Below, in pieces: positions 4,344 to 58,411 of a DNA stretch of 64,000 bases (position 1 is its first letter; every line of letters starts with the position of its first letter). The notes under the pieces were generated by a model that was not told where the DNA came from, made no database searches, and worked only from the letters and a program-made list of their open reading frames with translations. Position numbers and translations under genes: made by a program. Source of the DNA: Amycolatopsis camponoti (GTDB lineage: Bacteria; Actinomycetota; Actinomycetes; Mycobacteriales; Pseudonocardiaceae); assembly GCF_902497555.1 (NCBI RefSeq), contig NZ_CABVGP010000002.1, forward strand, positions 384,501-448,500, written 5' to 3'.

Positions 4344-4427
4344 AGCCGATCACCGAAGATCGAACCCGGAACGCGAAAAACCCCTCCGACCAGCCACAAC
4401 GGCTGAAACGAAGGGGTTCTGCGAGAG
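4344..4427 (-). repeat. tRNA downstream flank with terminator (copy 1)
   Basis: This stretch resembles 9516-9598 over its whole length: both start with GC[C/G]GATCACC[G/C]AAGATCG and end with GGTTCTGCGAGAG. It contains a hairpin with stem AACCCCT (4379-4385) and AGGGGTT (4412-4418). On the minus strand this is followed by a run of T, as expected for the terminator of a minus-strand tRNA gene whose 3' end begins at 4428. Confidence 0.6.
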
Positions 4428-4617
4428 TGGAGCTAAGGGGACTCGAACCCCTGGCCCCTCACTGCCAGTGAGGGCCGATCATGGTCCTGACCTGCGGCGA
4501 TGGAGAATCGCCTAGTGAAATGATGCGCTTCGGTGCCGTTCTTGGCAACTGGGTGTTGTTGAGCGCGATTGCGGCAGGGGGTTTGCCCCAGCTGTGCCCC
4601 GGCGAAATTAGTGAGAG
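4428..4617 (-). repeat. Attachment-site scar: 3' half of tRNA-Ala(GGC) plus 140-bp arm (copy A)
   Basis: On the minus strand the last ~50 bases read as the anticodon arm, variable loop, T-arm and acceptor 3' strand of tRNA-Ala: the anticodon loop is CTGGCAG (anticodon GGC), the T-loop is GGTTCGAGTCC, and the 3' end is TTAGCTCCA. The 5' half of the tRNA is missing, so this is not a functional gene. The next ~140 bases (to GTGAGAG at 4617) match 52141-52283 closely. This is the signature of a tyrosine-integrase element that inserted at a tRNA 3' end. Confidence 0.8.
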
Positions 4618-17939: not shown

Positions 17940-17959
17940 GGGACCTCTTACGAGGTCCC
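17940..17959 (+). terminator. Hairpin, possible terminator
   Basis: GGGACCTC (17940-17947) and GAGGTCCC (17952-17959) form a perfect 8-bp stem with a 4-base loop, followed within 8 bases by ATTTT. It lies just after the transposase relic. Confidence 0.4.
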
Positions 17960-29060: not shown

Positions 29061-29100
29061 GACCGCCCGACGACCGAACGTAGATCCCCAGGACGTGGTA

Positions 29101-31796: not shown

Positions 31797-31965
31797 GAAC
31801 AGCTACCCTAGGCCACCCTGAGTGACATCTGAAGATCCAAATGCCCGGTTGCGGACTTCGTTATCCAGGTGAGAGAAGGTTCCGCCAGCAAGTGGGGCTT
31901 CCTCTTGAAGGATCAGCCGGGCCCGGTTCGGCCGGGCTGCGGACCCGCGGCCACGCACTGTGACC
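31604..31965. repeat. 362-bp perfect direct repeat, copy 1
   Basis: This segment is identical to 33702-34063. It contains the 5' end of the wHTH gene and the 3' end of an imuA' gene. In this copy the wHTH gene is whole and the imuA' part is a fragment. The two copies flank a foreign 1.74-kb segment. Confidence 0.95.
31803..31965 (-). pseudogene. Orphan 3' end of imuA' left in repeat copy 1
   Basis: It encodes the same last 54 residues as the intact gene at 33901-34668 (PNRARLILQEEAPLAGG and onwards), then the homology stops at 31965 where foreign DNA begins. No start is available. Confidence 0.8.
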
Positions 31966-33660: not shown

Positions 33661-33701
33661 ACTCGCCCGAGTTGCTACGCACCAATTTGGCCCAACTCGG
33701 G

Positions 33702-33894
33702 TGCGGAGCCAGAAGTCCAGCTTTTGCAGCCGGGTCTGTCCCTCGACCACTCCTACGGCATCCGTCAGGGCCTGGTCGTCGGCTATCGGACCAGGCAACG
33801 GCTCGGCGGCGCCATCGATCAGCAGCAGGATCCTGACCGCGTCCTGCTCGCGGCTCGTTACGGCTTCGCCGTTGCCCTCGCCCTCGCCATCCAC
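33702..33894 (-). pseudogene. Orphan 5' end of the wHTH gene left in repeat copy 2
   Basis: It encodes the same first 64 residues as the intact gene at 31098-31796 (to LQKLDFWLR). The frame then continues into unrelated inserted DNA as a meaningless 134-residue tail. It would be translated if imuA' is expressed, since its GTG lies 6 bp after the imuA' stop. Confidence 0.8.
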
Positions 33895-34063
33895 GAACAG
33901 CTACCCTAGGCCACCCTGAGTGACATCTGAAGATCCAAATGCCCGGTTGCGGACTTCGTTATCCAGGTGAGAGAAGGTTCCGCCAGCAAGTGGGGCTTCC
34001 TCTTGAAGGATCAGCCGGGCCCGGTTCGGCCGGGCTGCGGACCCGCGGCCACGCACTGTGACC
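33702..34063. repeat. 362-bp perfect direct repeat, copy 2
   Basis: This is identical to 31604-31965. Here the imuA' 3' end is part of the intact gene, and the first 64 codons of the wHTH gene are an orphan 5' fragment (33702-33894) that runs into foreign sequence. Confidence 0.95.
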
Positions 34064-44549: not shown

Positions 44550-45083
44550 GTGATCAAGCACCTCACATCGAGCGTGTTCATCTTCGGGCTGGTCGGTGAA
44601 GTGTGGAGTCTGGGGCTGATCGAGCATCCTCGCCTGCGGCGTTGGATGATCCCCGGTGGTCATGTCGAACTGGGCGAGTCGCAGGTTGATTCCGCACTTC
44701 GCGAGGTCGAAGAGGAAACTGGCCGACGGGTTCGATTGGTGCGGCCCCCTGGTCCAGCAGTCCCGCCCGCCTTTCCGCGCACCGTGCTGACGATGCCGTG
44801 GTGGATCACCGAGCAGCCGGTGCCGCCGGATGCGCACTGCGGGGATCGTCACGTGCATGTCGATCACCAGTACGTCGCCCTCGTCACCGACCCTGACGAG
44901 ATGATCCGGGAGCCGGAGCACCCGTTCCGCTGGGTTCGGCCGGACGAACTCGACGGCCTCGCGATGTTCGCCGACACGCGGCTGCTCGCCACTGGCTTGT
45001 TCGCGGTCGTGCCGATGCTCGGCGCCGGCGACGTCGACGCGGTGACCGTGATGAGGTCGCTGGCGGGTGATCGGCAGTCGTGA
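44550..45083 (+). CDS. Nudix hydrolase
   Basis: The protein has 177 residues from a GTG at 44550. The Nudix box is complete: IPGGHVELGE followed by SALREVEEETG, supplying the metal-binding REVEEE residues. It hydrolyses a nucleoside-diphosphate-linked compound in the cytosol; the compound is not predictable. It converges on the phosphotransfer operon at 45130, with a small hairpin between them. Given that operon's kinases, phosphatases and nucleotidyltransferase, it could be a related activity, but it is transcribed separately. Confidence 0.85.
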   Translation: MIKHLTSSVFIFGLVGEVWSLGLIEHPRLRRWMIPGGHVELGESQVDSALREVEEETGRRVRLVRPPGPAVPPAFPRTVLTMPWWITEQPVPPDAHCGDRHVHVDHQYVALVTDPDEMIREPEHPFRWVRPDELDGLAMFADTRLLATGLFAVVPMLGAGDVDAVTVMRSLAGDRQS

Positions 45084-45129: not shown

Positions 45130-46785
45130 TTAGACCCGCTTGGTGCGCTGCTTCCACAACACGGCGAGCCACCGCAGGGCGATGGTGCGCCGCGCGGCGT
45201 CGAATCGGGCGCGGTTGCCCGGCGTAATGCCGAGTTCGGCTTCGGCGCTGGTCCAGACGTCGTCGGGAATGACGCGGGCGCTGATGTGCTCGATGTGGTC
45301 GGCGGCGTCGACGGCGATGTCGGAGAAGCCGCTGAACTCGAAGTCCGCGACGTAGGTGGTCTCGCCGTCGTGGAGCCAGTTGAGCAGGTTCGCGTCGCCG
45401 CGGGAGTAGACGGGGGTGGCGGGCTGTGCGAGCAGTTCGGGGTCGCCGCTGTTCTCCCAGCGGTGCAGGAGAGCGAGCATGTCCGGGGTCTGGGGGTCGT
45501 CGGCGGCGTCGGCGAGCTGGCCGGGCCAGACATCGGTGAGCCGGGCGATGTAGTGGCCGATGGAGTCGACGCGTTCCAGGCTGGCTAGCGGTTCTTTCAG
45601 CGGAATGCTCTGCAGGACGCGGGTGGTGTTGGCCAGCGACTTGATGGCCGACGCCGGGTCGAGAACGTCGAGGATTGGGGAGCCGGGCAGCAGTGTCATG
45701 CCGAGTGCTGGCTGTTCGGGGTGCTCGTCGAGCCACAGCGGTTCCGGTGCGCTGCCCAGGCCGGCGGCGTGGGTGAGGCCGTGCCACTCGCGCTCGACGC
45801 GCTGCCGGTCCGTCTTCTTGTAGAGCTTGATGCAGATCGGCGTGGGGGCCGTGGTCCAGGCGAAGACGTCGTTGTTGCGACCACCGTCGAGTGCGTGCAA
45901 CCCGTGTTCGTCGAGTGTGGCGGCCAGTGCGTCGGCTCCGGCTGCACGCGCGGTGCGCAGGGCGCTGAGCAGGTCGATGGGAGCGGTGTTCTCGCGGTGG
46001 CTGGCCAACGTGGTCATCGTCTCGGACTCTCGGTTTCGGCTCGGCGCGGATGGGCGGGATTCAGCGTAGGAGACAGGCTCGGCGGTTTCGTGGTGCCCCG
46101 CACACGGGCTCAGGTCGATGTCGCCCGTCTGGCTGATCTGACGCAGAGTGGCGTGAATAGCTTGGTGGGTGTCGACCGGGTCGAGATCGGTGACATCGAG
46201 GACGGTTAGCTGGGGGTCTCGTGCGGCAAGCAGTGCGTAGCCGTGGTCGACCCAGGTGAGGTGGGCGCGTTGTTCGCCGGTGAATGCGTGGCGGCGGTCT
46301 CCTCCGCGTTGGTCGGCGCGACGAGCGGCGACCTCTGGGGGTACTCGCAGCCACAGTGCTCGGGTGGGGCGTGGCCCGGCCAGCGCTGTGAGGGCGTTCA
46401 GCCAGTCGAGCGCGACGTCGGCGGGTGCGCGGTGCTGGCGGAGTAGGGCGGCGATCGCGTAGGAGGCCATCGTGTGTATGCCGCGGTCTTCGATCACGAC
46501 GGTGGCAGGGTCCTCGGCCAGCGCTGGATCGAGGACGGTGGCGACGAGGTCAGCCCGGATGGCAGCAGTGATCATGGTGTCGGTGATGGCGTCGCCGCTG
46601 CGCAGGAAGGGGTCACCGCTGGTGCGCAGCAGTTCGACGAGGCTGGCCGCCACGGGATCGGTGTCCAGGGTGGCCAGGTCGGACAGAACAGTGACGGGCT
46701 GACCGCTGGCTTTCAGACACCTCGCGAGCATCCGGCTCTGGGTGCTCTTGCCCGCGCCGGGCAGCCCCTCGAACGTGATCAGCAC
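45130..46785 (-). CDS. Thymidylate-kinase-like / aminoglycoside-phosphotransferase-like fusion kinase
   Basis: The protein has 551 residues. Residues 1-225 resemble a dTMP kinase: P-loop EGLPGAGKST (6-15), VIEDRGIHTMASY where dTMP kinases have DRY/DRF, and a lid-like RRADQRGGDRRHAFTGEQ. After a linker (about 230-255), the C-terminal half is an APH-type small-molecule kinase: GGRNNDVFAW nucleotide loop, lysine in ICIKLYKK, catalytic SRGDANLLNWL and metal-binding VADFEFSGFSD. Two kinases in one chain suggest sequential phosphorylations or a regulated phosphotransfer. It is the last gene of the operon, its start overlapping the preceding stop by 7 bp. Substrates are unknown; neither thymidine nor aminoglycosides need be involved. 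Confidence 0.75.
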   Translation of the reverse strand: MLITFEGLPGAGKSTQSRMLARCLKASGQPVTVLSDLATLDTDPVAASLVELLRTSGDPFLRSGDAITDTMITAAIRADLVATVLDPALAEDPATVVIEDRGIHTMASYAIAALLRQHRAPADVALDWLNALTALAGPRPTRALWLRVPPEVAARRADQRGGDRRHAFTGEQRAHLTWVDHGYALLAARDPQLTVLDVTDLDPVDTHQAIHATLRQISQTGDIDLSPCAGHHETAEPVSYAESRPSAPSRNRESETMTTLASHRENTAPIDLLSALRTARAAGADALAATLDEHGLHALDGGRNNDVFAWTTAPTPICIKLYKKTDRQRVEREWHGLTHAAGLGSAPEPLWLDEHPEQPALGMTLLPGSPILDVLDPASAIKSLANTTRVLQSIPLKEPLASLERVDSIGHYIARLTDVWPGQLADAADDPQTPDMLALLHRWENSGDPELLAQPATPVYSRGDANLLNWLHDGETTYVADFEFSGFSDIAVDAADHIEHISARVIPDDVWTSAEAELGITPGNRARFDAARRTIALRWLAVLWKQRTKRV

Positions 46786-47603
46786 GCCACGACCTCCTCG
46801 CCGGTGAAACCGTTGATCGCGCTCGCACGCTGGACGATGCCGAGGATGTCCTCGATCAGGGTGGGTGCGGCGGCGATGGTGCAGCGGGAGGCAGTGGTGT
46901 GGTCAGTGCCGTCGAGATCGGTCACGTTGGCGCCGGCTTCGCGGGCGATGACGGCTCCGGCGGCCATGTCCCAGGTGCGGTTGCCGAGGGTGATCGACGC
47001 GCCCAGGGCGGAGTCGGCCAGCAGCGCGAGGTCGGCCGCGGCGGTTCCGAGCATCCGGATGCGTTGCGCTCGGGGCGCGAGGTCGGCGTGGATCGCCAGC
47101 ATCGCCGCGTTGCGGGCGGCGGCGTCGGGTCCGGTGCCGTAGTCGCCGACCGCGACGATCGCCTCATCCAGGCGGGCCGGGCCGGCGATGCGGATCGGGT
47201 GGCCGTCCCGGCAGGCGCCGAGACCGTCCGCCGCACAGTACGTGCGGCCGAGCTGGGGCAGGGCGATGACCCCGAGCGGGGGGTCCTCGTCGACGACCAG
47301 GGCAAGGGAGATGCCGGTCAGCGGGATGTCGTGGGTGAGGTTGGCGGTGCCGTCGACCGGGTCGATGACCCAGCGGGTGCCGCTGGTCGGGCCGCCTTCT
47401 TCTTCGCCTTGGACACCGATTCCTGGAGTGGCGCGGGTCAGCTCGTCGCGCACGATCCGTTCGATGGCGAGGTCGACGTCGGTGGCCATATCCCGGTCAC
47501 CTTTGCCAGTGCAGGTGCGGGGACGGTGGGTGCGCAAGAACGCCGCGCCGTGCTCGACGGTCGCCTGCGCGATCAGCAGCAATCCTGGCAGTTCGGTGCT
47601 CAC
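46779..47603 (-). CDS. Inositol-monophosphatase-family phosphatase
   Basis: The protein has 274 residues from a GTG at 47603 that overlaps the preceding stop (GTGA). Family motifs are clear: WVIDPVDGTANLTHDIP (metal-binding DPxDGT) and the C-terminal WDMAAGAVIAREAGA. The upstream Glu ligand is probably in QGEEEGG. It hydrolyses a phosphomonoester such as an inositol, sugar or nucleotide 3'-phosphate (CysQ/SuhB-type superfamily). Within this operon it may remove a phosphate placed by one of the kinases. Confidence 0.85.
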   Translation of the reverse strand: MSTELPGLLLIAQATVEHGAAFLRTHRPRTCTGKGDRDMATDVDLAIERIVRDELTRATPGIGVQGEEEGGPTSGTRWVIDPVDGTANLTHDIPLTGISLALVVDEDPPLGVIALPQLGRTYCAADGLGACRDGHPIRIAGPARLDEAIVAVGDYGTGPDAAARNAAMLAIHADLAPRAQRIRMLGTAAADLALLADSALGASITLGNRTWDMAAGAVIAREAGANVTDLDGTDHTTASRCTIAAAPTLIEDILGIVQRASAINGFTGEEVVAC

Positions 47604-48178
47604 GAGGTCTCCACGGTGGTCGGGGCCGGCGGATGAATCACGGCTTCGGACGGAGCGAGGGTGTCCAGGTGGCGCAGGACGATGTCGACGTTGGTCGCGA
47701 CGGGCTTTCTGGTGTCCAGCAGCAGTTTCGGGCCGGTGATCGGCACAGCGGTGGCGGCGAGTTTCTGGTGTAGCTGCGGGGTGCGGTTGGCCGCTGGGTG
47801 AAGGCCATGCTGGTGATCGGCGGTCAGCCGGGCGTGAGCGACGTCCACTGGGCAGACGCATTCGAGCAGCAGCAGGGGTTGCCGGTGCGCCCCGGCGAAG
47901 GACCGCAGGTCCTCGACCTGGCCGGGAGCCAGCCAGGTCCGCCCGTCGAGCACGACGCTCGTGGCGGGAGCACGCAGCCACTGCCAGACCGCGGTCGCGA
48001 ACAGGACCTGGACGCAGTGGTCGTCCTGGTCGCGGGTGTAGGTGGTGTGCTCGGTGCCGAACAGCGCGTGCCGGACGGCGTCTTTGCGCAGCAGCAGCGC
48101 GCCGGGAATGTGGCTGGTGAGGTGCTCTGCCAGCGTGGTCTTGCCGACGCCGGGCAGCCCGGCCAAGGCGATGATCAT
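47600..48178 (-). CDS. Small P-loop kinase (AAA_33 / zeta-like)
   Basis: The protein has 192 residues from the ATG at 48178, overlapping the nucleotidyltransferase stop by 4 bp. It starts MIIALAGLPGVGKTTLAEHL, a standard Walker A, then RKDAVRHALFG (the RxDxxR-type substrate loop of gluconate/zeta-toxin-like kinases), and later DGRTWLAPGQVEDL. It probably phosphorylates a small molecule or nucleotide sugar. It belongs to the coupled operon of phosphate-transfer enzymes. Antibiotic kinase or zeta-toxin-like activity are alternatives. Confidence 0.72.
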   Translation of the reverse strand: MIIALAGLPGVGKTTLAEHLTSHIPGALLLRKDAVRHALFGTEHTTYTRDQDDHCVQVLFATAVWQWLRAPATSVVLDGRTWLAPGQVEDLRSFAGAHRQPLLLLECVCPVDVAHARLTADHQHGLHPAANRTPQLHQKLAATAVPITGPKLLLDTRKPVATNVDIVLRHLDTLAPSEAVIHPPAPTTVETS

Positions 48179-49017
48179 CGGTGCGGCTCCTCGTCGACTG
48201 GGAAGCGGGCCGGGTCGGCGGGCAGCAGAGGCCAATGGGAGCGCAGCACCGACCAGCCGGCGAGGACGTCGGCGTGATGCGGTGCGGGCGGCGCGGTCGC
48301 ACGGACTTGGCGGATCGCGTCGGCGGCGAGCGGCCAGCGCGGTCGTGCCGCGAGCCGGGCCAGTGTGTGGTTGACCGCGTCGGACGGCGCGAGAATGGGC
48401 AGCGGATGGTCGTGCGGGGGCACGTTGATCCCGGTGCGGCGGGCCAGCAGGCCGGGGACGTCGTCGGTGCAGCCGCGCGGCAGGGTCGTGGCCAGGTCGA
48501 CGACTATGAGCGGGACGATCGGGTCGCCGGTCTGCCGCGTCCAGGTCCGGTTGTCCCGGCTGGGCTCGTAGCCCTGGGCGCGGAGGACGACCTGCGCGCG
48601 GTCGGCGTCGCCGGGCGCGATGAGCAGGTCGATGTCGCTGAACTGGCGAGCGCCGGTGCTGGCGTAGAGGGCGTGTTCCACGCTGAGCCCCCCGAGTACG
48701 ACAGCGGATACTCCAGCGGTGCCCAACGCCGCCGTGTCGGCGAGCGCGGCCACGCGACAGGCGTAGGTCTTGTACCGGTTGGCGCGCAACGTGCTGTCGA
48801 GGAACCGCGTCACCGCGCGATCCAGCTCGGGGACGGAGTGGTCGTGTAGGTACGCGGCCAGCAGGCAGAGCGTCTTCGACCGTACCGACTGCTCCAGTAC
48901 CGCGCCCAGCTCGGTGAGCACGGCATGAGCGATCATCTCGTGACTGTCGGCACCGGTGCCCCAGCACAAGGCCCGCACGGCGTCCTCGGCGAGGCGGCCT
49001 GCCCGTCGGTCGGTCAT
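48175..49017 (-). CDS. Nucleotidyltransferase family protein (NTP_transf_5-like)
   Basis: The protein has 280 residues from the ATG at 49017, overlapping the HPr-kinase-like gene stop by 4 bp; the open frame extends further 5', but that part is not coding-like. The family core is GGLSVEHALYAS then GARQFSDIDLLI, the D-x-D metal site of the pol-beta-type nucleotidyltransferases often found in RiPP clusters next to HPr-kinase-like genes. It would transfer a nucleotide or nucleotide-phosphate group to a peptide or small molecule. The pairing with the kinase is preserved here, but no peptide maturation enzymes are present. Confidence 0.78.
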   Translation of the reverse strand: MTDRRAGRLAEDAVRALCWGTGADSHEMIAHAVLTELGAVLEQSVRSKTLCLLAAYLHDHSVPELDRAVTRFLDSTLRANRYKTYACRVAALADTAALGTAGVSAVVLGGLSVEHALYASTGARQFSDIDLLIAPGDADRAQVVLRAQGYEPSRDNRTWTRQTGDPIVPLIVVDLATTLPRGCTDDVPGLLARRTGINVPPHDHPLPILAPSDAVNHTLARLAARPRWPLAADAIRQVRATAPPAPHHADVLAGWSVLRSHWPLLPADPARFPVDEEPHR

Positions 49018-50201
49018 CCCCGACCACCCGGCCCGGCCGCCTGGGTTGCTGCGTGGTCGAGCAGGGCAGCCACGCGGGCTGCCAACGTGTTGGGCGAGTC
49101 GGTGACCGGGATCCGAACACACGGCACGGTCCGGGCGAGCTGGTCCGCGACGGCGGTGAGCGCGAGCGCGGTCCGATCTTGGTCGGGCGGCAGCAGCCAG
49201 TGGTTGCGGTGCGAGGTGACGCGGGTGACCGGATCATGCATGAAGAACTGCGTGCGTACCAGGACGTCGCGTACCTCGGCCGCAGGCACTGGCTCGGGCG
49301 GGAGGTCGCTGGCGCTGCGGTAGGGCCAGAGCATCAGCGTGGGCCGGACCTCGCCGAGGATCTGCGCGGCGGGCAGCGCGGCCCGCAGCTCGCCCGGCTC
49401 GATTGCGATCTTGCCGCTGGGCGCGGACTGGCCGGCAGGGCTGTTCTGCTGCTGTTCGGCGGGCAGGAACCTGTTCATCCCCGGTACGGCGCGCAGCGTG
49501 CTGGCGGTGGCCCGCAGGTGCATCGGCCAGGCGTAGCCGACCGTGCCGCCGTCGGGGTCACGGCGGAGCAGAAGCCGGTCGTTGGTGACGAAGTCCCCGC
49601 CCACCAGCCGCAGGGCGCTCAGCAGGGTGGTGGTCTTGCCTGCGCCCTTCGGCCCGGCGATCAGCAGGCCGTGATCGGCGCGCACGAGCGCGGCGGCGTG
49701 CGCGTAGACCGCGTCGTGCTCCAGAAGCTGGGCGGTCATGGCCTGCCGCACGAGTCGGGCGGCGAAGAACCTCGCGGCGTCCAGGCCGCCGGCGTGCACG
49801 GTGATTGTGCCGAGCAGTTCGTCGAGGTGCACGAGGGTGGCGTGGTCGCGGATCCAGAACGCCCGGCCGCCGGGCACCCCGATCGACTGGGCCTGGAGGT
49901 TCGGCCCGATGTCGTGGTCATCGGCGTCGGCGAACCGGGCGTTCACTCCTGCTTGGTCGACGCGCACGCCGGTGTGCAGGGTGATGGTCCACCGGCTGGC
50001 CGCGGTCCGAGTGCGTGCGTAGGAGTAGAGCGTGGTCTCCGCGCCCCTGATCAACTCGCCGCGGTCGGCGCGCAGGGTGACGCTGGCCGTGCCCTGGACG
50101 AAGCGGCGCGTCGCGCCGGCAGGCGCGCCGTAGCCGATCAGCGGCCGGATCGGACAGGAGGCGTCGGTGGGCGCGGGTTGATGCTTGCGCGAGCTCGTCA
50201 T
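49014..50201 (-). CDS. HPr kinase/phosphorylase-like protein
   Basis: The protein has 395 residues from the ATG at 50201, overlapping the cupin gene stop by 4 bp. The N-terminal ~165 residues are unlike HprK; the C-terminal part has the HprK-type P-loop GLLIAGPKGAGKTTTL and the following LVGGDFVTNDRLLL, as in serine kinases from lasso-peptide and related clusters that phosphorylate a peptide or metabolite hydroxyl. A Phe/His-rich end (RNHWLLPPDQDR) follows. It is directly followed by a nucleotidyltransferase gene, a pairing known from RiPP phosphorylation. The substrate here is unknown. Confidence 0.75.
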   Translation of the reverse strand: MTSSRKHQPAPTDASCPIRPLIGYGAPAGATRRFVQGTASVTLRADRGELIRGAETTLYSYARTRTAASRWTITLHTGVRVDQAGVNARFADADDHDIGPNLQAQSIGVPGGRAFWIRDHATLVHLDELLGTITVHAGGLDAARFFAARLVRQAMTAQLLEHDAVYAHAAALVRADHGLLIAGPKGAGKTTTLLSALRLVGGDFVTNDRLLLRRDPDGGTVGYAWPMHLRATASTLRAVPGMNRFLPAEQQQNSPAGQSAPSGKIAIEPGELRAALPAAQILGEVRPTLMLWPYRSASDLPPEPVPAAEVRDVLVRTQFFMHDPVTRVTSHRNHWLLPPDQDRTALALTAVADQLARTVPCVRIPVTDSPNTLAARVAALLDHAATQAAGPGGRG

Positions 50202-51073
50202 GACGCCGCGGCGGGGATAGGGCGGCGGCCGAAATGTGCGGCGTGCTCCTGCAACCGGGCCAGTTCGGCGGCCGGGGCATGGCGGTAGAGCGCCGCCAGC
50301 CCGGAGGGCATCAGCAGGGGCTCGGCCCAGCTCGGGGACTCACCGCGCCGCAAAGGTCGCTCGGTGAGCTCGCGGCAGGAGCCGATCACGGCGATCTTCG
50401 AGTCCGTGCGTGCGATGGTCAGCTCAGGCGCGGGCGCCACTCGGTACTTCAGGTCACTGTCGACCGCCTCCCGACTGGTGTGTCCGGTCAGCAGGTCAGC
50501 GACGTCGGTATAGACGTTGAACACCGCCGCTGGGGCGTCGAGCACGACGGTCAGGTGCCAGGCACCGAACGGGATGACGACGTGATCACCAGCCCGGCAC
50601 ACGTGATAGTCCATTGTGGAGTTGCCGTCGCGGTCGATGTTGGTGTGCAACATGAGAACCCGCCCGGAGAGACACTGGAAGATTTCGACCTGTGCCGGGG
50701 TGTTCCAGTGGCCGAGCGACCGGCCGAGTTCCGGGCTGCCACCGAGATTTGCCGCGGTGTAGACGACGAGGTCAGCGAACCAGGTGTGCGTGCCTTCCGC
50801 GCCGTCGATCGGCTGGCCGGTCTTGGGCCGGGGCGCGGCGATGTCGCGGTAAGCGAGGTAGAGCTGCGGATCGATGCCGCGATTGAGCATTGCGCGCACC
50901 TCGTCCGAGTGGGCCAGGTAGACCGATCCGTCGGCGTCGGCTCCCGTCAGCAGATCGCGGAGATGCCGAGCACGGCCTTCGCGCGCTGATGCCGCGACGA
51001 GCAGATCCAGGCCGCCCGGCGGCAGCGGGCATGGAGAGACACGGGCCGTGGGGATGTCCAGCGGCGTGATCAT
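50198..51073 (-). CDS. Cupin-domain protein (phosphoglucose-isomerase-like cupin)
   Basis: The protein has 291 residues; I prefer the ATG at 51073, preceded by GAGGAA, over the TTG one codon earlier. The central cupin has LGHWNTPAQVEIFQCLSG (metal-binding HxN...E) and RAGDHVVIPFGAWHLTVV (second-motif His), the two-motif pattern of cupin-type sugar-phosphate isomerases and epimerases. Upstream and downstream extensions are unassigned. It may isomerise or bind a phosphorylated sugar that the operon's kinases make. It is 26 bp after the HAD gene and overlaps the HPr-kinase-like gene. Confidence 0.68.
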   Translation of the reverse strand: MITPLDIPTARVSPCPLPPGGLDLLVAASAREGRARHLRDLLTGADADGSVYLAHSDEVRAMLNRGIDPQLYLAYRDIAAPRPKTGQPIDGAEGTHTWFADLVVYTAANLGGSPELGRSLGHWNTPAQVEIFQCLSGRVLMLHTNIDRDGNSTMDYHVCRAGDHVVIPFGAWHLTVVLDAPAAVFNVYTDVADLLTGHTSREAVDSDLKYRVAPAPELTIARTDSKIAVIGSCRELTERPLRRGESPSWAEPLLMPSGLAALYRHAPAAELARLQEHAAHFGRRPIPAAAS

Positions 51074-51099
51074 CAAACGGGTTCCTCGGATCGGTGGGT

Positions 51100-51846
51100 T
51101 CAGGAGCAGGTGGCCAGGACGGCGTCGGGCATCTGGTCGAGGCTGGTGATGGCCCGCACGCCGGCCGGGCAGGGTTTGCCACGCGGGTTAAACAGCACCG
51201 CGCGGCATCCGGCGTTCAGCGCGCCGTGGATGTCGGTGGTCAGGCTGTTCCCGACGTGCACGACCCGGTCCAGGTCCGCACCTGCGGCGGCGGCGACCGC
51301 CACGAACATCTCCCGGCGAGGCTTCGCCAGCCCGACGTCGGAGGAGAAGACGGTCTCGTCGAAAACCGCGGCCAGGTCGTGATCGTCGAGGATGAGCCGG
51401 GACACAGACGCCGGGGTGGCGAGTGTGTTCGAGGTCAGCACGAGCCGGGCTCCGGCCTGCCTCAACGCCCAGAGCGCGCTGTGCGCGCCGGGGATGAGGT
51501 CGGGGCAGGCTCGCAGGACCGCGTGGGTGTGCGGCACGAGCAGGGTGTCGACCAGCCGCTTGTCCAGGGGCAGATCCATGACGGTGAGCATCTGCTCGAC
51601 TTGGCCGCGCACTGGAGGTTGTTCGCCAGTCGCGCGTTGGCGTTGCTGGGTTTCCGCCCGCACGGTGAGGATCGCCTCGCGGACCTGGCCGTCGGGTAGG
51701 TCGTGGCCGAACGCGGTGAGCACGGTCGCGAACTCGCGGATCCGCCAGGCGGCTTCGGCGTCACGGTCGCCGTAGGTGATCAACGTTCCCCACAGGTCGA
51801 CGCTGACCACCCAGCTCTCCAGCGGGCCTGCCGCGGCCGGTGTCAC
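51100..51846 (-). CDS. HAD-superfamily hydrolase
   Basis: The protein has 248 residues from a GTG at 51846 with GAGGAG upstream. HAD motifs: VSVDLWGTLITYGD (nucleophile Asp17; the usual acid at +2 is replaced by Trp), LVLTSNT (motif II), GLAKPRREMF (Lys of motif III) and VHVGNSLTTD (motif IV). The missing +2 Asp is seen in haloacid-dehalogenase-type members and may alter the reaction from simple phosphatase activity. It is the first complete gene of the seven-gene operon; a truncated ORF overlaps its start by 4 bp. Confidence 0.82.
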   Translation of the reverse strand: MTPAAAGPLESWVVSVDLWGTLITYGDRDAEAAWRIREFATVLTAFGHDLPDGQVREAILTVRAETQQRQRATGEQPPVRGQVEQMLTVMDLPLDKRLVDTLLVPHTHAVLRACPDLIPGAHSALWALRQAGARLVLTSNTLATPASVSRLILDDHDLAAVFDETVFSSDVGLAKPRREMFVAVAAAAGADLDRVVHVGNSLTTDIHGALNAGCRAVLFNPRGKPCPAGVRAITSLDQMPDAVLATCS

Positions 51847-51983
51847 GTTCGCTCCTCGACGCGTTTTCCGTCGAACGCCACGTCGCCCCGCTGGTTGTGC
51901 AACCAGATGGTGGTGGCGGCGAGATCGTCGCTGCCCAGCAGCAGCGATCCGGCGACCAGGCCACAGCGACCAGCCTGCTGCCC
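51843..51983 (-). pseudogene. 5'-truncated ORF overlapping the HAD gene start
   Basis: A minus-strand frame ends GDVAFDGKRVEERT with its TGA overlapping the HAD GTG (GTGA), the same coupling used throughout the operon. The upstream part (LVAGSLLLGSDDLAATTIWL) reads like real protein, but no ATG, GTG or TTG gives a start except a TTG 22 codons from the end. The frame runs back into the terminator hairpin next to the tRNA scar. It looks like the 3' remnant of the operon's original first gene. Confidence 0.45.
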
Positions 51984-52019
51984 ACAAACAAGAAGGCCAC
52001 CCGCAATGCGGGTGGCCCC
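51984..52019 (-). terminator. Rho-independent terminator (minus strand)
   Basis: GGCCACCCGC (51995-52004) and GCGGGTGGCC (52008-52017) form a perfect 10-bp stem with a 3-base loop. On the minus strand a T-rich tail, TTCTTGTTTGT, follows. It lies downstream of the tRNA-Ala 3' scar and probably once terminated that tRNA. Confidence 0.8.
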
Positions 52020-52092
52020 TGCTCGCCTTCAGGCGTCGCGGTCCTACTTCGTGGCCTTCAGCCAGGCACTTGTTCTAGTAAGACCTCTAAGG

Positions 52093-52283
52093 TGGAGCTA
52101 AGGGGACTCGAACCCCTGACCCCCTCACTGCCAGTGAGGGTCGATCATGGTCCTGACCTGCGGCGATAGAGAATCGCCTAGTGAAATGATGCGCTTGGGC
52201 GCCGTTGTTTGCAACTGTGTGTTGTTGAGTGCAGTTGTGACAGGGGGTTTGCCCCAGCTGTGCCCCAGTGAAATTAGTGAGAG
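52093..52283 (-). repeat. Attachment-site scar: 3' half of tRNA-Ala(GGC) plus arm (copy B)
   Basis: The tRNA half matches copy A at 4428 almost exactly (one extra base and one substitution), including the GGC anticodon loop, T-arm and TTAGCTCCA end. The next ~140 bp also match with scattered substitutions. The 5' half of the tRNA is absent. Together with copy A it brackets 47.7 kb. The 94 bp before the next gene show nothing recognisable. Confidence 0.8.
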
Positions 52284-52377: not shown

Positions 52378-54273
52378 TCAGAGGTCGTCGGCTTCCTGGT
52401 CGTCCGGTTCGGGTTCGAACTCTTCGGGGCGCTCGTCGTCGCCGTACTGTGCGACAGCCTGGTCGCTGAGGTCCAGCACGACCGGTTTGCCCATCGCCTC
52501 GGATGCCACTTTGACCAAGGCCGCGGTGCGGGCTTCGAAGAACTTGTCGAAGTCGGCGGCGCGGAGGGTCGCGGGATCGATGTGGTGAGTGGCCACGATC
52601 GTGTCCAGGGCCTCCGCCGTTAGACCGGTGTCCTTCTCGAGCTTGGCGAGGTAGTCGCGAGGAGATCGTCCGCCGATCGAGCGGTTGGTCTCGTAGGAGA
52701 TGGGTGTCTTGTTGACGATACTTTCGCGACGCGCATCGTCGACGTCGTTCTTCGCGCACCAGGCTTTCGGGAAGATGTGGTGTACGTCGATCTTGAGCGG
52801 CACAAAGGTGGCGTGTCCGATGATCTTCCGGTACTTCCAGTCGGTCGCGCCTCCGCGCATCATCAGCGCGTAGAGACCCTTATAGGCAGAACTGTTCCTG
52901 GTCTTCAGCGACAGTAGCCGACTTTCGCGGAAGCCGGCGCGAGCTACCGTCTCCGGCACGGCGGCAGATTCGCCGAGGGCCCAGGCCGGCACCTGTTCGA
53001 CGTCGCGGGTGAAGCGTGTCTCGACGGCGCCGCCGTACAACTCGCCCAACACTCCGCACCAGTACCACCGGCGGACGCGCCGGCTCGTCGTGTGGACATC
53101 GATCCGGTCGCCCAGCAAGACCCGCAGTACAGCCAGCGGGACCAGCTGCGTCCGGTACGACAGGTCGGCGTCGGTGAACACGTTCTCCTGGGCGAGGAAG
53201 CCCGCTGCCCACTCCAGTCCATCGGCGACCTGCGGTGCCCACTTGAGGTAGTCCTGCAGCGACAGTTTCAGAATGTCGGCTCGGCGTGCGCTGGTCGCCG
53301 GTAGGTCTCCGGTGTTCGTGGCGGCCTCGGTGCGCTTTCGGCGTCCGTGGGTGGCCAGCAGAGTGACCGCTTGCAGCAGGTCGCTGCTCTGCAGCCCTCT
53401 GAGCACCAGGTGATGGTCGAGCCGTTCCTTGAGCTGTCGCCAGTTGTCGTTGAGCCGGAAGTCGGTGCCGTGTTCGGCGAAGTAGGCCGCGTCACCGGCG
53501 AACATGGCCGTCAGGAGTTCGAAGACGTCGAGGGCGAGGCCGCCGGTGTTAACTTTCTCGAAGACGGTGCAGACGGCTTCCTTCGTGGTGTCCTTGCCGA
53601 GCATGATTGCGGGGATGCGGTAGCCGATCATCGGCGTCAGGATCTCCGCCTGGAAGCGTTGTACAGTGGCAATCCGCGCGTTATCGGCCAGTCCGCCGGG
53701 GGCTGCGTACTCCATCAACCACTTCATCGCCGCGGCTTGGTCGAAGGCCAGTGACATCGGGAACATGCCGGCGGCCTGCTCCGAGGGGGAGGTGAACAGA
53801 TCGAGATCGACGGCACGGCCGAAGTCCGACCGCACCTTGCGATCCGCGGGCACGGACACGATGGCCTCGTCGCGATCGACCGGATCGCCCAGGGCGTTGC
53901 CGATGTCCAGGTAATACCATCGCTGGAGCTTCTTCTTGCGGGCATCGGTGGTCTCGACGGGTCGTCCTCCGGTGAGCGCTTGGAACAGCGACGTCATGCG
54001 CTGCTGGCCGTCGAGGAGAAGATGGCTCGGGTGGACGTCGTTCTTCAAGGACACGCCTGCCAGTGTCTTGGGCTTGAACCTGGTGTGCGTGCTGCCCGTT
54101 TCCAGCATCATGAGCACCCCCATCGGATGCCCCAACGTGAGGGTGGCGAGCAACGAGCGGATGCGGTCATCGTCCCACTTGTACTCCCGCTGGAAATCCG
54201 GGAGCTGCAGCTTGCCGCTGCGGACCTGCTGCAGTAGGTCCGTCAAGGGCAACTGCGGGCTCTGAAAACTCAT
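52378..54273 (-). CDS. DUF262 / HNH-type protein (GmrSD-like)
   Basis: The protein has 631 residues from the ATG at 54273; the longer frame overlaps the methyltransferase gene. The N-terminal DUF262 (ParB/GmrS-type NTPase-like) motifs are LPDFQREYKW (24-33) and HLLLDGQQRMTSLFQ. Near the C-terminus, DVHHIFPKAWC (HHIFPKAW at 498-505) with a following Asn in SIVNKTPIS forms an HNH-type nuclease (DUF1524-like). Such proteins cut modified or foreign DNA. It is the last gene of a minus-strand operon, 7 bp after the N6-methyltransferase. It is an addition to the DISARM-like set and may be its nuclease or an allied type IV restriction enzyme. Confidence 0.82.
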   Translation of the reverse strand: MSFQSPQLPLTDLLQQVRSGKLQLPDFQREYKWDDDRIRSLLATLTLGHPMGVLMMLETGSTHTRFKPKTLAGVSLKNDVHPSHLLLDGQQRMTSLFQALTGGRPVETTDARKKKLQRWYYLDIGNALGDPVDRDEAIVSVPADRKVRSDFGRAVDLDLFTSPSEQAAGMFPMSLAFDQAAAMKWLMEYAAPGGLADNARIATVQRFQAEILTPMIGYRIPAIMLGKDTTKEAVCTVFEKVNTGGLALDVFELLTAMFAGDAAYFAEHGTDFRLNDNWRQLKERLDHHLVLRGLQSSDLLQAVTLLATHGRRKRTEAATNTGDLPATSARRADILKLSLQDYLKWAPQVADGLEWAAGFLAQENVFTDADLSYRTQLVPLAVLRVLLGDRIDVHTTSRRVRRWYWCGVLGELYGGAVETRFTRDVEQVPAWALGESAAVPETVARAGFRESRLLSLKTRNSSAYKGLYALMMRGGATDWKYRKIIGHATFVPLKIDVHHIFPKAWCAKNDVDDARRESIVNKTPISYETNRSIGGRSPRDYLAKLEKDTGLTAEALDTIVATHHIDPATLRAADFDKFFEARTAALVKVASEAMGKPVVLDLSDQAVAQYGDDERPEEFEPEPDDQEADDL

Positions 54274-54280
54274 GCTCTTC

Positions 54281-57200
54281 CTACCTCGTTTCTTCGGGTG
54301 CAGGGTGACGTTTGGCCGCGCGCACGGTGGGTGTGGCGCTGCTTCTGGGTTGCGGCACCGTTGGATGCGGAGTCGCAGGATGTCTGGGGCCTTCACCGGC
54401 TGGTGGCGTCGCGAGCGGGATCCAGCCGTGCCCGCCGCGTGCGGTCGCGTCGGTCATCCGGTCGAAAGCCTCGAGGACGAGACGGCGCGTGCGGTACTCG
54501 CTGAAATCGCGCTGCTCGTATTTGCGTACGACGGGGAACGAGTCCAGGATGTGCTCAGACTCGGCGCGGGTCAGGCCGTAGACGTGGAGCATGGCGGCGT
54601 CAAGGTCGGCGCGCAGCAGTGCCCGACGGTCGGGGTCCCAGTGGAACGGTGGGCTGTCGTCGTCAATTTCGTTGGCGTACGGCTGAAGTCGCCATGAGGT
54701 GTAGGACAGCTCCAGAACGTACGGGGTGACCCACTCGGCAAGAGTGCGTTCGGCTTGCCAGGAGGTCGGTTGGGCAAAGACAGTGGGGGTAGGGCAGGCA
54801 AGCTGTTTGACTACTGAGTAGATCATGTGCGTACCACTGATCTTTTGCCTGACGATATAATCGACGGCTATCGACGACCAGATCGCATGCAGGAGCATCC
54901 CGTGTTTGGGGTCTTTGGGGAAGGCGAGTGGAAACACGTGGGCGACAGCGCTGCTAGGCAGCACGGATGGTACGAACGTGCGCATGTCGCTGGCGCGGGC
55001 AATGTCGCGCCAGCCCAGTAGCCACTTTCGATCCCATTTGGCGTCCAGGGCTGCTGCGACCTTCGGCTGGGCAACCCAGTATCGGGCTAAGGCTTCTGTC
55101 TGTGGGTCGTCATGTTGCTCCGCAGTCAGCCTCGGGAGGGAGCCGACGTTCAGCTGAGCCTGGGTCGCATCGCGGTATGTGGAGAAGCGGTGGTCGAAGT
55201 GGCCGAGCATCTTCGCCTCGTACAGTGGCAGATACTCGTACTCTTGTCTCTCATACGACCAGCCGTTGAATGTTGCCGCAGTCAGGTCCGTGGGTTGGTG
55301 GAACAGCCCTGAATCGTTTGCCATATCGAACAAGCGGCAGAACGACAAGCCCCATGGGTTTCCATCGGCATTGCCGTCTCGGATGAGCACTGGGTGGCGG
55401 CGGTAGATGCCTAGGGTGATGTCGGCGTCGGTGCGCGTCCGGAACATGGGGAGCGTTCCGGTGTTGGGGTTCAGCGCCAGAACCTCGTCCGGGGCGAGTT
55501 CAAAACGTCTGTCCGGTACATCGGCCAGGTGACGGGTGAGGAAAGCGAAGCGGGTTTGCGCCACGGCCCTGTTTATCCCGGAGATTGCTGTGATCGCGAA
55601 CCGCATCCGGTGATCGGTTCCGGAGAAGACTCTGTCTTCGTTTTCGAAGTCGTAGAACGTAAGAAGACGCTTCTCGTCGAGTGTGTCCGCGAAGAACGGC
55701 GCAGTGGTTTTGTCTGTGGCGAGACCAGTGGGGGTGAGCATGCCGGCGATTCCGGTCGGTGCGGTTATGGTGCGCATGGTTTCTGCGAAGACGCTGTAAC
55801 TATTGACATCTCCTTGGCCAGTGAGGGGATAGCGGCCGCTGTGAAGAAGGAGGTGGCTGACGCCGTCCGACATGCGAAGTGCTGACAGATAGGCGTCGTA
55901 CAGGGGCGGATCTTGGATGGCCAGGACCTTGATCATGCTGGTGCGGATGGCGGCGGTTTTGGCGTCGGCGATGTCCTTGCGCCCGATCGCGGAGAAGAAC
56001 TCTTTGTCTTGGATCTTCACTCGGTCCCAGGTCGGGTTGCCGATGACGCACGAGAAGCCGCCCTGCCAACCGGTTACGGGTTCTACGCTCTTGGAACCAG
56101 TTTCGGGGGCGGTGAAGATGCCGGGGAACTCGAGATGCCAGTGGAAGACGCGGTACTGCCGAGCGAGGTCGCCAACAGTCTTGCGAAGGGATGCGGGAAC
56201 ACTGGTGGGGTCCTCGATGATCTGGCGAACGGTGTCGTGGGTGATGCTTTGGCCGGTTGAACGTGATTTGAGCTGGAGGAACGCGGTGCACCAGGCGTCT
56301 GCGGCGAACTTCTTGGTAGCGAGGTCAGGATCGTCTTCCAGACGACGCCAGCTGTCAGCTCGGGCACGAATCGTCGCGAGGGTTGTGGCTGGCATCTCCT
56401 CAAGTTGGCGTGCCTGCTTGGTCAGCGCGGCAGTCTCGACGTCGAACGCCGTCACTTGGCCGGATTCGCGGGCCCGTTCGGCCTTGTTGCGGGCCTTGAG
56501 CTTGGCAGTCCAGGCGGGGTCGTCGCCGGTGAGGACAGCGAACGCAGCGTCGGGGACGCCCTTGCGGATCAGCGCGGGAGTGGTCCCGAGTAAGGAGTTG
56601 CCGACCTTGAAGTGGGCGTCGAGGAAGGGAAATGGCCGGGAGCCGTCGAAGGCTTCCAGCCAGAGTGCGACCTTGGTGATCTCGATGGCCAGGTCGTTGA
56701 GGTCGACCCCGTAGAGGCACCGTTCGATGACGTCTGCGGTGGCAGCACGGAGTACGCGAGGGCTGGGTTCGGTGTCGCCGGTGCGAACAGTGGCCAGGGC
56801 GGTGGCGATGCGTCGGGCTGCAGCGACGACGAAGTGTCCGCTGCCCACGGCGGGGTCGACGACGGTGATGGCCAGCAACGCGGCTTCGGGGTCGGCAGTG
56901 TCGAGGGCTTCGGTGATGAGCGGGTCCAGGGCCTCGTCGAGGACGAGCGCGATGAGGCCGGATGGCGTGTAGTAGGAGCCAGATTTCTTGCGGTCGTTGC
57001 CGGCGGCGATTTCCAGGCTGAAGGTTCGGGCGGCTGCGTCGTAGCGCGGGGTGTAGGCGAGGAGTCCTTCGTAGATACCGCCGAGTTCTTCGCTGTCGAG
57101 GTTGCGGTAGTCGACTGGGCGAGCGGCGCCCGTTTTGATGTCGGTGATCTCGGCGAGGGCGCGGATGGCGGCCAGCAGGTCGCGGTTGGGAAGGACGGCG

Positions 57201-58327
57201 TTGGCGAGGATGCCGAGGTTTTCCCTGGTGAAGAGGGTGGCGCCGAGTCCGGGGAGGGCGAGTTCGTCGAGGCCGTCGCCGGCGAGGGCGTCGGTGACGA
57301 TCTGGTGGGCGGCCCACAGGTCGGTGTGCCGGGTTCCGGTGCGGGTGGTCGCCAGGTGGCGTAGGCGAGTGGTGGAGAAGTACTCGTTGTAGAGGTTCTG
57401 GGCGTCGGTGTCGGTGCTGGCGTTGTGCAGCAGGTCTCGGTCTTCGGCGACGAAGAGCACGATGAACCGGTAGGCGATGCGCAATAGCGCGCGGTGCAGA
57501 TCCTTGGCCGCGTCGGGTGATGTGGCGAGCATGGACCGTAGGTGGCTGTTCCACGGGTGGGCGACGAATCCGGTTCCCAGGTGGGTCAGTGCGGTGGCGA
57601 CGCCTTCGCGCAGTTTGGTCAGGGCGCGGGTGCCGTCGGCGATGGCCGCTGTGCGCCATTGCTCCAGCCAGCAGCTCTCCGGGGCGAGTGTGGGTGAGTC
57701 CGATTCCTTGTCGTCTGCGATGGGTGCGACGCGGCTGGCGTGGACGGTGAGGAGGAAGAGCCGGAAGTCGGCGTAGCGTTGGTTGTCGAAGATGTCGTCG
57801 AGGTCGAACTCCACATAGGACTGTTTGGTCAGGGTGGAGGCGTCCCGGAGCAGCCGGAGGGTGTGGCCGTTCGAGACGATTCCCCAGAGATTGCTGCGGC
57901 TGCGGTTGAGGTAGTCCTGCACCATCGATTGGGGTGCGCGGGCGGTGACGCCGGGGGTGCTGTTGTCGATGCTGATGCCGCCGCCCACCAGATGCAAGGG
58001 CACGACAGTGGTGGGCTCGCCGGCTCCAGCGGACCAGGTGATGCGATGGGAGAGGGGGAAGTGCGTCGGTTGGGTTTCGCCGAGGCCCGGGGGCAGGTCG
58101 ATCCCGCCGGTGAGCGTTTCGGGGCGGCCGTAGCCGAGTTCGTAGAGCAGCGGCAGGAGCCACCGGTCCCGGGTCAACGCGGTGGCCGCGTCCCCGGCCG
58201 GCCGCCGCGCTAGGGCGGCTTTCCAGGCGTGGTGGGCGCCCAGCGCGGCGTCCCAGGCTCGGGCGACCGCGGCGCTGACGGTCATGCCTGGGGTGAGCTG
58301 GTAGTCCTCTGCGGTTTGGCCTGGCAT
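54281..58327 (-). CDS. N6-adenine DNA methyltransferase, Eco57I/DrmMI-like
   Basis: The protein has 1348 residues from the ATG at 58327. Methyltransferase motifs: YYTPSGLIALVLDEALDPL, motif I VVDPAVGSGHFVVAA (AdoMet binding), and motif IV VIGNPTWDRVK, an NPPW variant with Thr in place of the second Pro. Large N- and C-terminal regions of the kind seen in DrmMI and type IIG enzymes surround the core. It would mark self DNA at adenine for the DISARM-like operon. The 28 codons upstream of the ATG are in frame and look coding (SVATVGTVLPSEALTHAVDL), up to the TAG of the SNF2 gene, so the true start may be upstream at a non-standard codon. Confidence 0.82.
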   Translation of the reverse strand: MPGQTAEDYQLTPGMTVSAAVARAWDAALGAHHAWKAALARRPAGDAATALTRDRWLLPLLYELGYGRPETLTGGIDLPPGLGETQPTHFPLSHRITWSAGAGEPTTVVPLHLVGGGISIDNSTPGVTARAPQSMVQDYLNRSRSNLWGIVSNGHTLRLLRDASTLTKQSYVEFDLDDIFDNQRYADFRLFLLTVHASRVAPIADDKESDSPTLAPESCWLEQWRTAAIADGTRALTKLREGVATALTHLGTGFVAHPWNSHLRSMLATSPDAAKDLHRALLRIAYRFIVLFVAEDRDLLHNASTDTDAQNLYNEYFSTTRLRHLATTRTGTRHTDLWAAHQIVTDALAGDGLDELALPGLGATLFTRENLGILANAVLPNRDLLAAIRALAEITDIKTGAARPVDYRNLDSEELGGIYEGLLAYTPRYDAAARTFSLEIAAGNDRKKSGSYYTPSGLIALVLDEALDPLITEALDTADPEAALLAITVVDPAVGSGHFVVAAARRIATALATVRTGDTEPSPRVLRAATADVIERCLYGVDLNDLAIEITKVALWLEAFDGSRPFPFLDAHFKVGNSLLGTTPALIRKGVPDAAFAVLTGDDPAWTAKLKARNKAERARESGQVTAFDVETAALTKQARQLEEMPATTLATIRARADSWRRLEDDPDLATKKFAADAWCTAFLQLKSRSTGQSITHDTVRQIIEDPTSVPASLRKTVGDLARQYRVFHWHLEFPGIFTAPETGSKSVEPVTGWQGGFSCVIGNPTWDRVKIQDKEFFSAIGRKDIADAKTAAIRTSMIKVLAIQDPPLYDAYLSALRMSDGVSHLLLHSGRYPLTGQGDVNSYSVFAETMRTITAPTGIAGMLTPTGLATDKTTAPFFADTLDEKRLLTFYDFENEDRVFSGTDHRMRFAITAISGINRAVAQTRFAFLTRHLADVPDRRFELAPDEVLALNPNTGTLPMFRTRTDADITLGIYRRHPVLIRDGNADGNPWGLSFCRLFDMANDSGLFHQPTDLTAATFNGWSYERQEYEYLPLYEAKMLGHFDHRFSTYRDATQAQLNVGSLPRLTAEQHDDPQTEALARYWVAQPKVAAALDAKWDRKWLLGWRDIARASDMRTFVPSVLPSSAVAHVFPLAFPKDPKHGMLLHAIWSSIAVDYIVRQKISGTHMIYSVVKQLACPTPTVFAQPTSWQAERTLAEWVTPYVLELSYTSWRLQPYANEIDDDSPPFHWDPDRRALLRADLDAAMLHVYGLTRAESEHILDSFPVVRKYEQRDFSEYRTRRLVLEAFDRMTDATARGGHGWIPLATPPAGEGPRHPATPHPTVPQPRSSATPTVRAAKRHPAPEETR

Positions 58328-58411
58328 CCGCAGGTCGACGGCGTGGGTGAGGGCCTCGCTGGGCAGTACCGTGCCGACCGTGGCGACGGAGCGGAATGCC
58401 GTGAGAGTGGT

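Follow-up and report, generated by a model that had tools for sequence, protein, structure and literature searches.

A seven-gene phosphotransfer operon in Amycolatopsis camponoti is probably the cut-off back half of a larger 7-deazaguanine gene cluster

Introduction

What would seven tightly coupled genes for phosphotransfer enzymes, matching no known system as a set, be doing inside a mobile island of Amycolatopsis camponoti? The genes lie at 51846-45130 on the minus strand of a 64-kb stretch of contig NZ_CABVGP010000002.1 (hereafter the window, in whose own coordinates positions are given) and encode a HAD-family phosphatase, a cupin, an HPr-kinase-like protein (HprK), a nucleotidyltransferase, an AAA_33-type P-loop kinase, an inositol-monophosphatase-like phosphatase (IMPase) and a fusion of thymidylate-kinase-like (TMPK) and APH-like parts. 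An initial annotation, made from the window by itself, had taken them for a complete system of their own, serving a small-molecule pathway or making a signalling or defence nucleotide. We find that they correspond to the tail of a 15-17-gene cluster, and we put at about 80% the probability that the operon is the back half of that cluster, whose front half, including the 7-deazaguanine genes, was cut away at the end of the mobile island in A. camponoti.

The seven genes end a longer cluster in relatives

Searching other genomes for the same gene set and inspecting its neighbours, as the initial annotation had proposed, placed deazaguanine genes upstream of the operon in intact relatives. We mapped 25 loci, the window included, with one common reference set; a gene is called absent when it is missing from the stretch read. 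Among plasmids, tblastn detected HprK in seven records and the cupin in eight, and the annotation was read in four of the HprK-bearing records. In Amycolatopsis sp. AA4 and in Streptosporangium the row runs QueD, QueE, a further gene, QueC, a nucleoside 2-deoxyribosyltransferase (NDT), a TIM-barrel isomerase and a ribulose-phosphate 3-epimerase, and then the seven genes. Pfam marks the further gene as thymidylate-kinase-like in AA4, and also in S. liliifuscus, at another place in the row; in Streptosporangium we take it as thymidylate-kinase-like from its position. Two Streptomyces plasmids carry a phosphoribosyltransferase (PRT) in place of NDT, together with radical SAM, aminotransferase (DegT by Pfam), methyltransferase and non-ribosomal peptide synthetase (NRPS) genes, and in L002-L004, the Streptomyces and Streptosporangium loci, TMPK and APH are each encoded by a gene of their own.

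The names of the front genes agree with their family matches: PF01242, Radical_SAM and PF06508 for QueD, QueE and QueC in AA4, and PF05014 and PF00156 for the base-attachment enzymes of the relatives. Nine of ten PDB matches of the NDT protein are named nucleoside 2-deoxyribosyltransferase, the best match carrying no molecule name. In the PDB the TIM-barrel protein is related to a putative xylose isomerase and to a protein that bears the name of an erythrulose-4-phosphate enzyme, and the cluster epimerase is nearer to ribulose-phosphate than to allulose-6-phosphate epimerases. The intact cluster of 15-17 genes is mobile, occurs in actinomycetes and is apparently undescribed: a search of one open-access library, judged by title and start of abstract, turned up no description of it. 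The initial annotation had named as its own undoing the case that the genes are the tail of a known biosynthetic cluster; the tail of a biosynthetic cluster is what we find, of one for which we found no description.

The window copy breaks inside the epimerase gene

Directly upstream of the operon stands a 112-bp remnant of the epimerase gene (51958-51847), a feature that the initial annotation had overlooked. Its stop codon overlaps the start codon of the HAD gene, and the island edge follows within a short distance:

51847..51958, minus strand: remnant of a ribulose-phosphate 3-epimerase gene, last 112 bp, with the break at 51958/51959
51985..52091, minus strand: 107 bp read as a putative mobile-element end, 90.7% identical to P. 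dioxanivorans (L078) and holding the hairpin 52019-51993
52091..52118, minus strand: 3' fragment of tRNA-Ala(GGC), attachment-site-like (att-like) repeat, with a copy at 4426-4453
4426..4453, minus strand: second copy of the tRNA-Ala 3' fragment, on the opposite side of the island

The remnant is 98.2% identical to the A. magusensis locus (L046) and 79-91% identical to four other loci compared. When the window was aligned with seven close loci, six of them intact and the seventh, from Pseudonocardia dioxanivorans, cut further upstream, homology ended exactly at 51958 in all seven. The other end of the homology lies at about 44.5 kb, near the start of a NUDIX gene (44916 with L046, 45084 with AA4), which accompanies the tail in eight of the nine close Pseudonocardiaceae loci mapped, the window included; it is partial in L046 and absent from AA4. 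The front genes of the cluster, used as tblastn queries over the 64-kb window, returned only the 43-residue epimerase remnant, and QueD, QueE and QueC are absent from the window by the same search.

Upstream of the break, 26 bases of no assigned origin are followed by the P. dioxanivorans-like 107 bp and then by the tRNA-Ala fragment. The 107-bp segment matches DNA directly after the intact tRNA-Ala(GGC) in P. dioxanivorans and was unmatched at 14 other att-like loci compared; we read it as a putative mobile-element end. The 28-bp repeats at 4426-4453 and 52091-52118 differ by one mismatch, with none expected by chance, and their 196-bp flanks are 87% alike; the operon lies within the bracketed island, as had been annotated. 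A tyrosine integrase (PF00589) is encoded at 8146-9252, on the side of the other att-like copy, and its relatives adjoin tRNA-Ala-type sites in other genomes (L073, L082, L083, L085, L086 and L093), which suggests a shared integration hot spot at this tRNA. The hairpin at 52019-51993 is the one terminator-like site between the att-like site and the operon, a count that does not differ from chance (shuffles give 0.5, standard deviation 0.8), and no sigma-70-like promoter was found upstream of the operon, where none is expected by chance either.

Whole tails are accompanied by QueC, with few exceptions

A scan of genome contigs gave 12 loci, nine of cluster type. Within the family of Amycolatopsis sp. 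GM8 (G003), 25 of 390 genomes had a match at E <= 1e-20, 11 of them strong; within that of Micromonospora rubida (G005), 8 of 354 had one at E <= 1e-35; and a class-wide sample gave 2 of 394, one being G003 itself. These counts are lower bounds, few candidates per genome having been scored (4-5 in the rows shown). The hosts of the cluster belong to Pseudonocardiaceae, Micromonosporaceae, Streptomyces and Streptosporangium and carry it on plasmids and chromosomes, and none of the 55 stretches of viral contigs that matched a pattern encoded a relative.

The order HAD-cupin-HprK-nucleotidyltransferase-AAA_33-IMPase-TMPK-APH is unbroken in 20 of the 25 loci, and 17 of these 20 whole tails have QueC. 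QueC is missing from the window, from P. dioxanivorans and from L012, where the contig breaks off just upstream of the epimerase. An unbroken tail is missing from L048, where the contig ends inside HprK and QueC is on another contig of the same genome, from L010 and L071, where the tail is rearranged, and from L050 and L072. Setting aside the window, P. dioxanivorans, L012 and L048 leaves 21 loci, L072 included, among which QueC is found in 19 (missing from L050 and L072) and both QueD and QueE in 18 (missing from L002, L003 and L072). NDT is present in 11 of the 21, PRT in nine, neither in one (L072) and both in none. The alternative base-attachment genes go with other content, a radical-SAM/aminotransferase pair being found at 9/9 PRT loci and 0/11 NDT loci. 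The mapped loci include near-copies (L005, L043 and L045 share an identical HprK), and the HprK tree indicates that the NDT/PRT split is partly shared descent.

Outside the mapped set, the other 14 of the 25 matches in the G003 family search are weaker HprK-like ones (L028-L041, about E 1e-20 to 1e-29). In protein P0104, from a 744-bp public contig, the first ~107 residues are identical to the window cupin and the rest is ABC-permease-like, which would make it either a chimeric contig or a further broken copy.

A second truncated copy points to recent, separate events

In P. dioxanivorans the cluster is cut in the TIM-barrel gene at about codon 94. A 9908-bp block here is 99.8% identical to A. 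rubida, which indicates that it moved very recently between genera. The copy sits ~41 kb downstream of the same tRNA-Ala as the window site, in the same orientation, and a large open reading frame (ORF) beside that tRNA-Ala may, on our reading of its sequence, encode a serine recombinase. Among the open-access literature on tRNA-Ala islands we found no paper naming this species. Separately, 469 bp of the window (17950-18417) are 85.5% identical to DNA ~5 kb past the tail of the P. dioxanivorans cluster and are perhaps another shared mobile piece.

Both truncated HprK proteins nest within the intact NDT-type loci (10 rows, 97/92; 9 rows, 100/100), the tree leaving the position of the window protein among the nine rows unsettled. 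This placement makes truncation look derived, and the different break points in the window and P. dioxanivorans suggest two events. Having neither base genes nor a base-attachment enzyme, the window tail most likely survives as a recent relic; if the front half is present elsewhere in the genome, the tail would instead work only together with that half.

The operon proteins are intact

The order and coordinates of the seven minus-strand ORFs are as first described, and five of the six junctions overlap (by 4, 4, 4, 4 and 7 bp), the exception being a 26-bp gap between the HAD and cupin genes:

51100..51846, minus strand: HAD-family phosphatase, 248 aa, GTG start (PF00702, 59.8 bits; motif VDLWGTL)
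50198..51073, minus strand: cupin with a predicted phosphoglucose-isomerase-type (PGI-type) fold, 291 aa (conserved GHxN...Q.E and H173)
49014..50201, minus strand: kinase with a predicted HPr-kinase/PEPCK fold, 395 aa (Walker A GPKGAGKT)
48175..49017, minus strand: nucleotidyltransferase of the NTP_transf_5 family, 280 aa (PF14907, 62.8 bits against a cut-off of 31.2; motif ending FSDID)
47600..48178, minus strand: P-loop kinase of AAA_33 type, 192 aa (PF13671, 53.7 bits; Walker A)
46779..47603, minus strand: IMPase-like phosphatase, 274 aa (PF00459, 151.9 bits; motif DPVDGT)
45130..46785, minus strand: thymidylate-kinase-like/APH-like phosphotransferase fusion, 551 aa (PF02223, 35.2 bits; RGDANLLN motif)
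44550..45083, plus strand: NUDIX hydrolase, convergent to the operon (PF00293, 41.4 bits)

Five of the family calls in the initial annotation are borne out by Pfam, with PF00702, PF14907, PF13671, PF00459 and PF02223 all exceeding their cut-offs. The cupin matched no Pfam family and HprK none above cut-off, and these two were assigned via predicted folds; PDB sequence searches with them gave no useful match, and HprK stayed below the NCBIfam cut-offs for HprK_rel_A and HprK_rel_B (18.3 and 39.5 bits against 200 each). Its predicted model has the HprK/PEPCK fold with the Walker A lysine, K189, which is invariant across 41 sequences. The cupin model has a PGI-type fold in which H122, N124, E130 and H173 are invariant and may correspond to metal-ligand positions; in cupin-type phosphoglucose isomerases the full metal-ligand set is three His and one Glu. 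The PDB relatives of the IMPase-like protein are mainly IMPases, with one histidinol-phosphatase among them. Of the annotated fusion, the APH half fares least well: it has no Pfam match at E 0.1 and a sub-cut-off NCBIfam APH match only (20.6 bits of 205), while PF01636 (APH) is detected in the AA4 orthologue and in Streptomyces, there as a gene of its own.

All seven ORFs are intact and keep their catalytic motifs. Ratios of nonsynonymous to synonymous substitution (dN/dS) for the seven window genes against seven or eight loci are 0.15-0.40, which resembles the single control pair (L046 against L008, same genes, 0.17-0.54), so that the rates cannot show whether the tail is still used.

Weighing the explanations

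Several observations weigh against a beheaded cluster tail. The junction at 51958/51959 could be an assembly join, and the front half may sit elsewhere in the genome, outside the 64-kb window. That every tail ORF is intact is unlike an old relic, though the truncation may be too recent for decay. Not every relative has the expected content either. L050 has HprK, QueD, QueE, PRT, a TMPK-like gene, radical SAM and aminotransferase, without QueC and with most tail genes missing in the 20 kb read, and of this family L072 has no more than a fragmented cupin and an HprK-like stretch (12236-14906), among unrelated neighbours (a regulator, a class-III aminotransferase and an aldehyde dehydrogenase), an exception that does not bear on the truncation in the window. 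A genome search for QueC at E 1e-10 found it in 8 of 11 genomes and gave no match in those of L050 and L072 (G300 and G304) or of P. dioxanivorans (G002). The two Streptomyces plasmids (L002, L003) show neither QueD nor QueE over the stretches read, FolE is not among the ten AA4 genes scanned, and the QueC of the cluster is divergent (45 bits), reading SAGLDS where the usual motif is SGGxDS, which leaves the exact base unsure.

The seven genes might instead be a genuine minimal module that has no need of the deazaguanine half; in salvage or self-resistance, for instance, it could phosphorylate, nucleotidylate or inactivate a nucleoside or sugar imported from neighbours. Intact ORFs with catalytic motifs and low dN/dS against relatives would fit such a module, as would the existence of two beheaded copies with different break points, each with the tail complete and the NUDIX gene present. 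Yet both truncations look recent, given the 99.8% identity of the P. dioxanivorans block to A. rubida and the 98.2% identity of the window remnant to A. magusensis (though 79-91% to four others), and L072 looks decayed rather than like a working module. Whole tails without QueC among the 25 loci are confined to the window, P. dioxanivorans and the contig-cut L012, on which ground we rejected a stand-alone operon; a minimal module seems to us improbable.

A defence or signalling nucleotide system, which the initial annotation had entertained, has in its favour a window rich in defence-like genes (Lamassu LmuA/LmuB at 26994-31101, DISARM/DpdE-like genes at 54281-63957), and yet we regard it as very unlikely. 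None of the seven proteins has a convincing PADLOC match (best E 4e-4, to an AAA ATPase model), genes for biosynthesis or transport are neighbours in several intact relatives (L002 and L003 with radical SAM, aminotransferase and NRPS, L002 and L004 with ABC transporters), and the DISARM/DpdE-like genes are on the far side of the att-like copy and not part of the island. When 54281-58327 and 58412-61276 were compared by tblastn with the fetched loci, only L090 responded, at 35-38% over 154-219 residues, near a tRNA-Ala of A. magusensis and not at a cluster locus. The chance is slimmer still that the operon is a degraded tailoring cassette for a lasso peptide or other ribosomally synthesized and post-translationally modified peptide. 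The pairing of HprK with NTP_transf_5 does recall lasso-peptide tailoring, as had been annotated, in that the comparable pair PsmK and PsmN phosphorylates and glycosylates pseudomycoidin (PMC9266682, in part). By name and Pfam, however, no lasso cyclase or leader peptidase is named in the four annotated plasmid loci or matched in the window proteins scanned, and in 19 of the 21 loci the pair is accompanied by genes for deazaguanine and sugar-phosphate enzymes. The suggestion of a small-molecule pathway to a phosphorylated sugar or nucleoside, also part of the initial annotation, is the best reading of what the genes are for, in the setting of the beheaded cluster tail that we prefer.

Proposed chemistry of the intact cluster

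The product of the full cluster is most likely a phosphorylated 7-deazaguanine nucleoside with an isomerised sugar: a guanine-like base very probably joined to a modified, phosphorylated sugar. The substrates are suggested by family resemblance. Ribulose-phosphate epimerases and cupin phosphoglucose isomerases act on sugar phosphates, and the epimerase, TIM-barrel protein and PGI-type cupin could together isomerise a ketose or aldose phosphate. The HAD, IMPase, HprK-like, AAA_33, TMPK-like and APH proteins would set and clear phosphates and activate C1, and NDT or PRT would couple base to sugar. QueD, QueE and QueC, which turn a GTP-derived pterin into preQ0 (PMC11888242, in part), would supply preQ0 or its amide as the base. 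The product would stay phosphorylated, and the nucleotidyltransferase would decorate it with a nucleotidyl or glycosyl-phosphate group, much as its relative in lasso-peptide tailoring may do.

PF01702 (TGT) is absent from 10/10 genomes bearing the cluster, nine intact and one beheaded, against 14/14 controls that have it. This speaks against a role for the base in tRNA or in dpd-type DNA modification, and we rejected queuosine, archaeosine and dpd use of preQ0 on this count. More tentatively, and as a proposal we would back at somewhat less than even odds, the cluster may represent an undescribed mobile class whose product is a 7-deazaguanine nucleotide with a rare isomerised sugar (perhaps a ketose), still phosphorylated and with a cap added by the nucleotidyltransferase, and with base attachment interchangeable between NDT and PRT, the latter with the radical-SAM/DegT pair; beheaded island tails would then be cheaters or self-protection modules.

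Other features of the window

Inside the island, two genes at 26994-31101 make up a Lamassu defence system, one matching the LmuA model (E 3e-188) and the other the LmuB model (E 1e-194). A two-gene pair of a helix-turn-helix protein and an unknown occurs twice (9599-10854 and 25733-26985), 84-89% identical over the 300-nt stretches compared. An NB-ARC/TPR protein at 18775-21633 has eight repeat copies at 126-bp spacing, a Mutator-family transposase at 21865-23178 has inverted repeats at 21832-21858 and 23192-23218, and identical 300-bp direct repeats stand 2.1 kb apart at 31601-31900 and 33699-33998. Outside the att-like repeat, 52378-63957 holds a DISARM-like set comprising GmrSD-like, DrmMI/type IIG methyltransferase-like and DpdE/DrmD-like helicase genes and a DruE-like helicase with an MZB domain. 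The DpdE/DrmD-like helicase matches the DpdE model at E 2e-250; its sole match among the fetched loci is the weak one in L090, so that a DpdE label beside a deazaguanine cluster remnant looks like coincidence.

Discussion

From a broken tail the analysis leads to a family of deazaguanine clusters for which we found no description in the open-access library searched. The combination of deazaguanine synthesis with unusual sugar isomerases, kinases and a nucleotidyltransferase makes the family a tractable source of new nucleoside chemistry, and it offers a test of what the kinase and NTP_transf_5 pair does outside peptides. The window and its relatives are also a clear case of mobile elements cutting up a biosynthetic cluster.

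Elements of the cluster recur in several known systems. The dpd islands for 7-deazaguanine DNA modification have the preQ0 genes in common with it (PMC11888242, in part). They differ in that 10/10 cluster genomes have no PF01702 match, a DpdA too remote for the model being possible. Compared with archaeal cupin-type phosphoglucose isomerases, the cupin has ~16-17% identity and extra N- and C-terminal parts, and its N124 stands where the second metal-binding His of the known enzymes would lie. The lasso-peptide kinases PsmK and PadeK we take to be HPr-kinase-like. Both the PsmK/PsmN and PadeK systems have a kinase adjoining a nucleotidyltransferase-family gene, as in the operon, and PsmN, beside PsmK, puts a hexose on phosphoserine, as a glycosyltransferase or after nucleotidylation (PMC9266682, in part). 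Unlike these systems, the cluster has no peptide machinery among its named genes, and TIGR04352 and TIGR04355 match far below cut-off.

The angustmycin cluster, to our knowledge, uses an adenine base and has no Que genes, HprK-like kinase or NTP_transf_5. It provides a working analogy for the assembly of a ketose nucleoside, with AgmD as presumed 3-epimerase, AgmC as pyrophosphokinase and AgmE as phosphoallulosyltransferase within AgmA-F (PMC12648386, in part). From the pyrrolopyrimidine clusters ours differs in that FolE is not among the AA4 genes scanned, and the window copy lacks deazaguanine genes altogether. Toyocamycin synthesis reportedly uses a phosphoribosyltransferase, the counterpart of which is found in the PRT-type loci, whereas the NDT type has NDT in place of PRT. 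QueD, QueE and QueC are common to the toyocamycin, tubercidin and huimycin clusters and the intact relatives (huimycin: PMC7439116, in part), and to these the present cluster adds isomerase- and epimerase-type sugar enzymes, five or six kinases and a nucleotidyltransferase.

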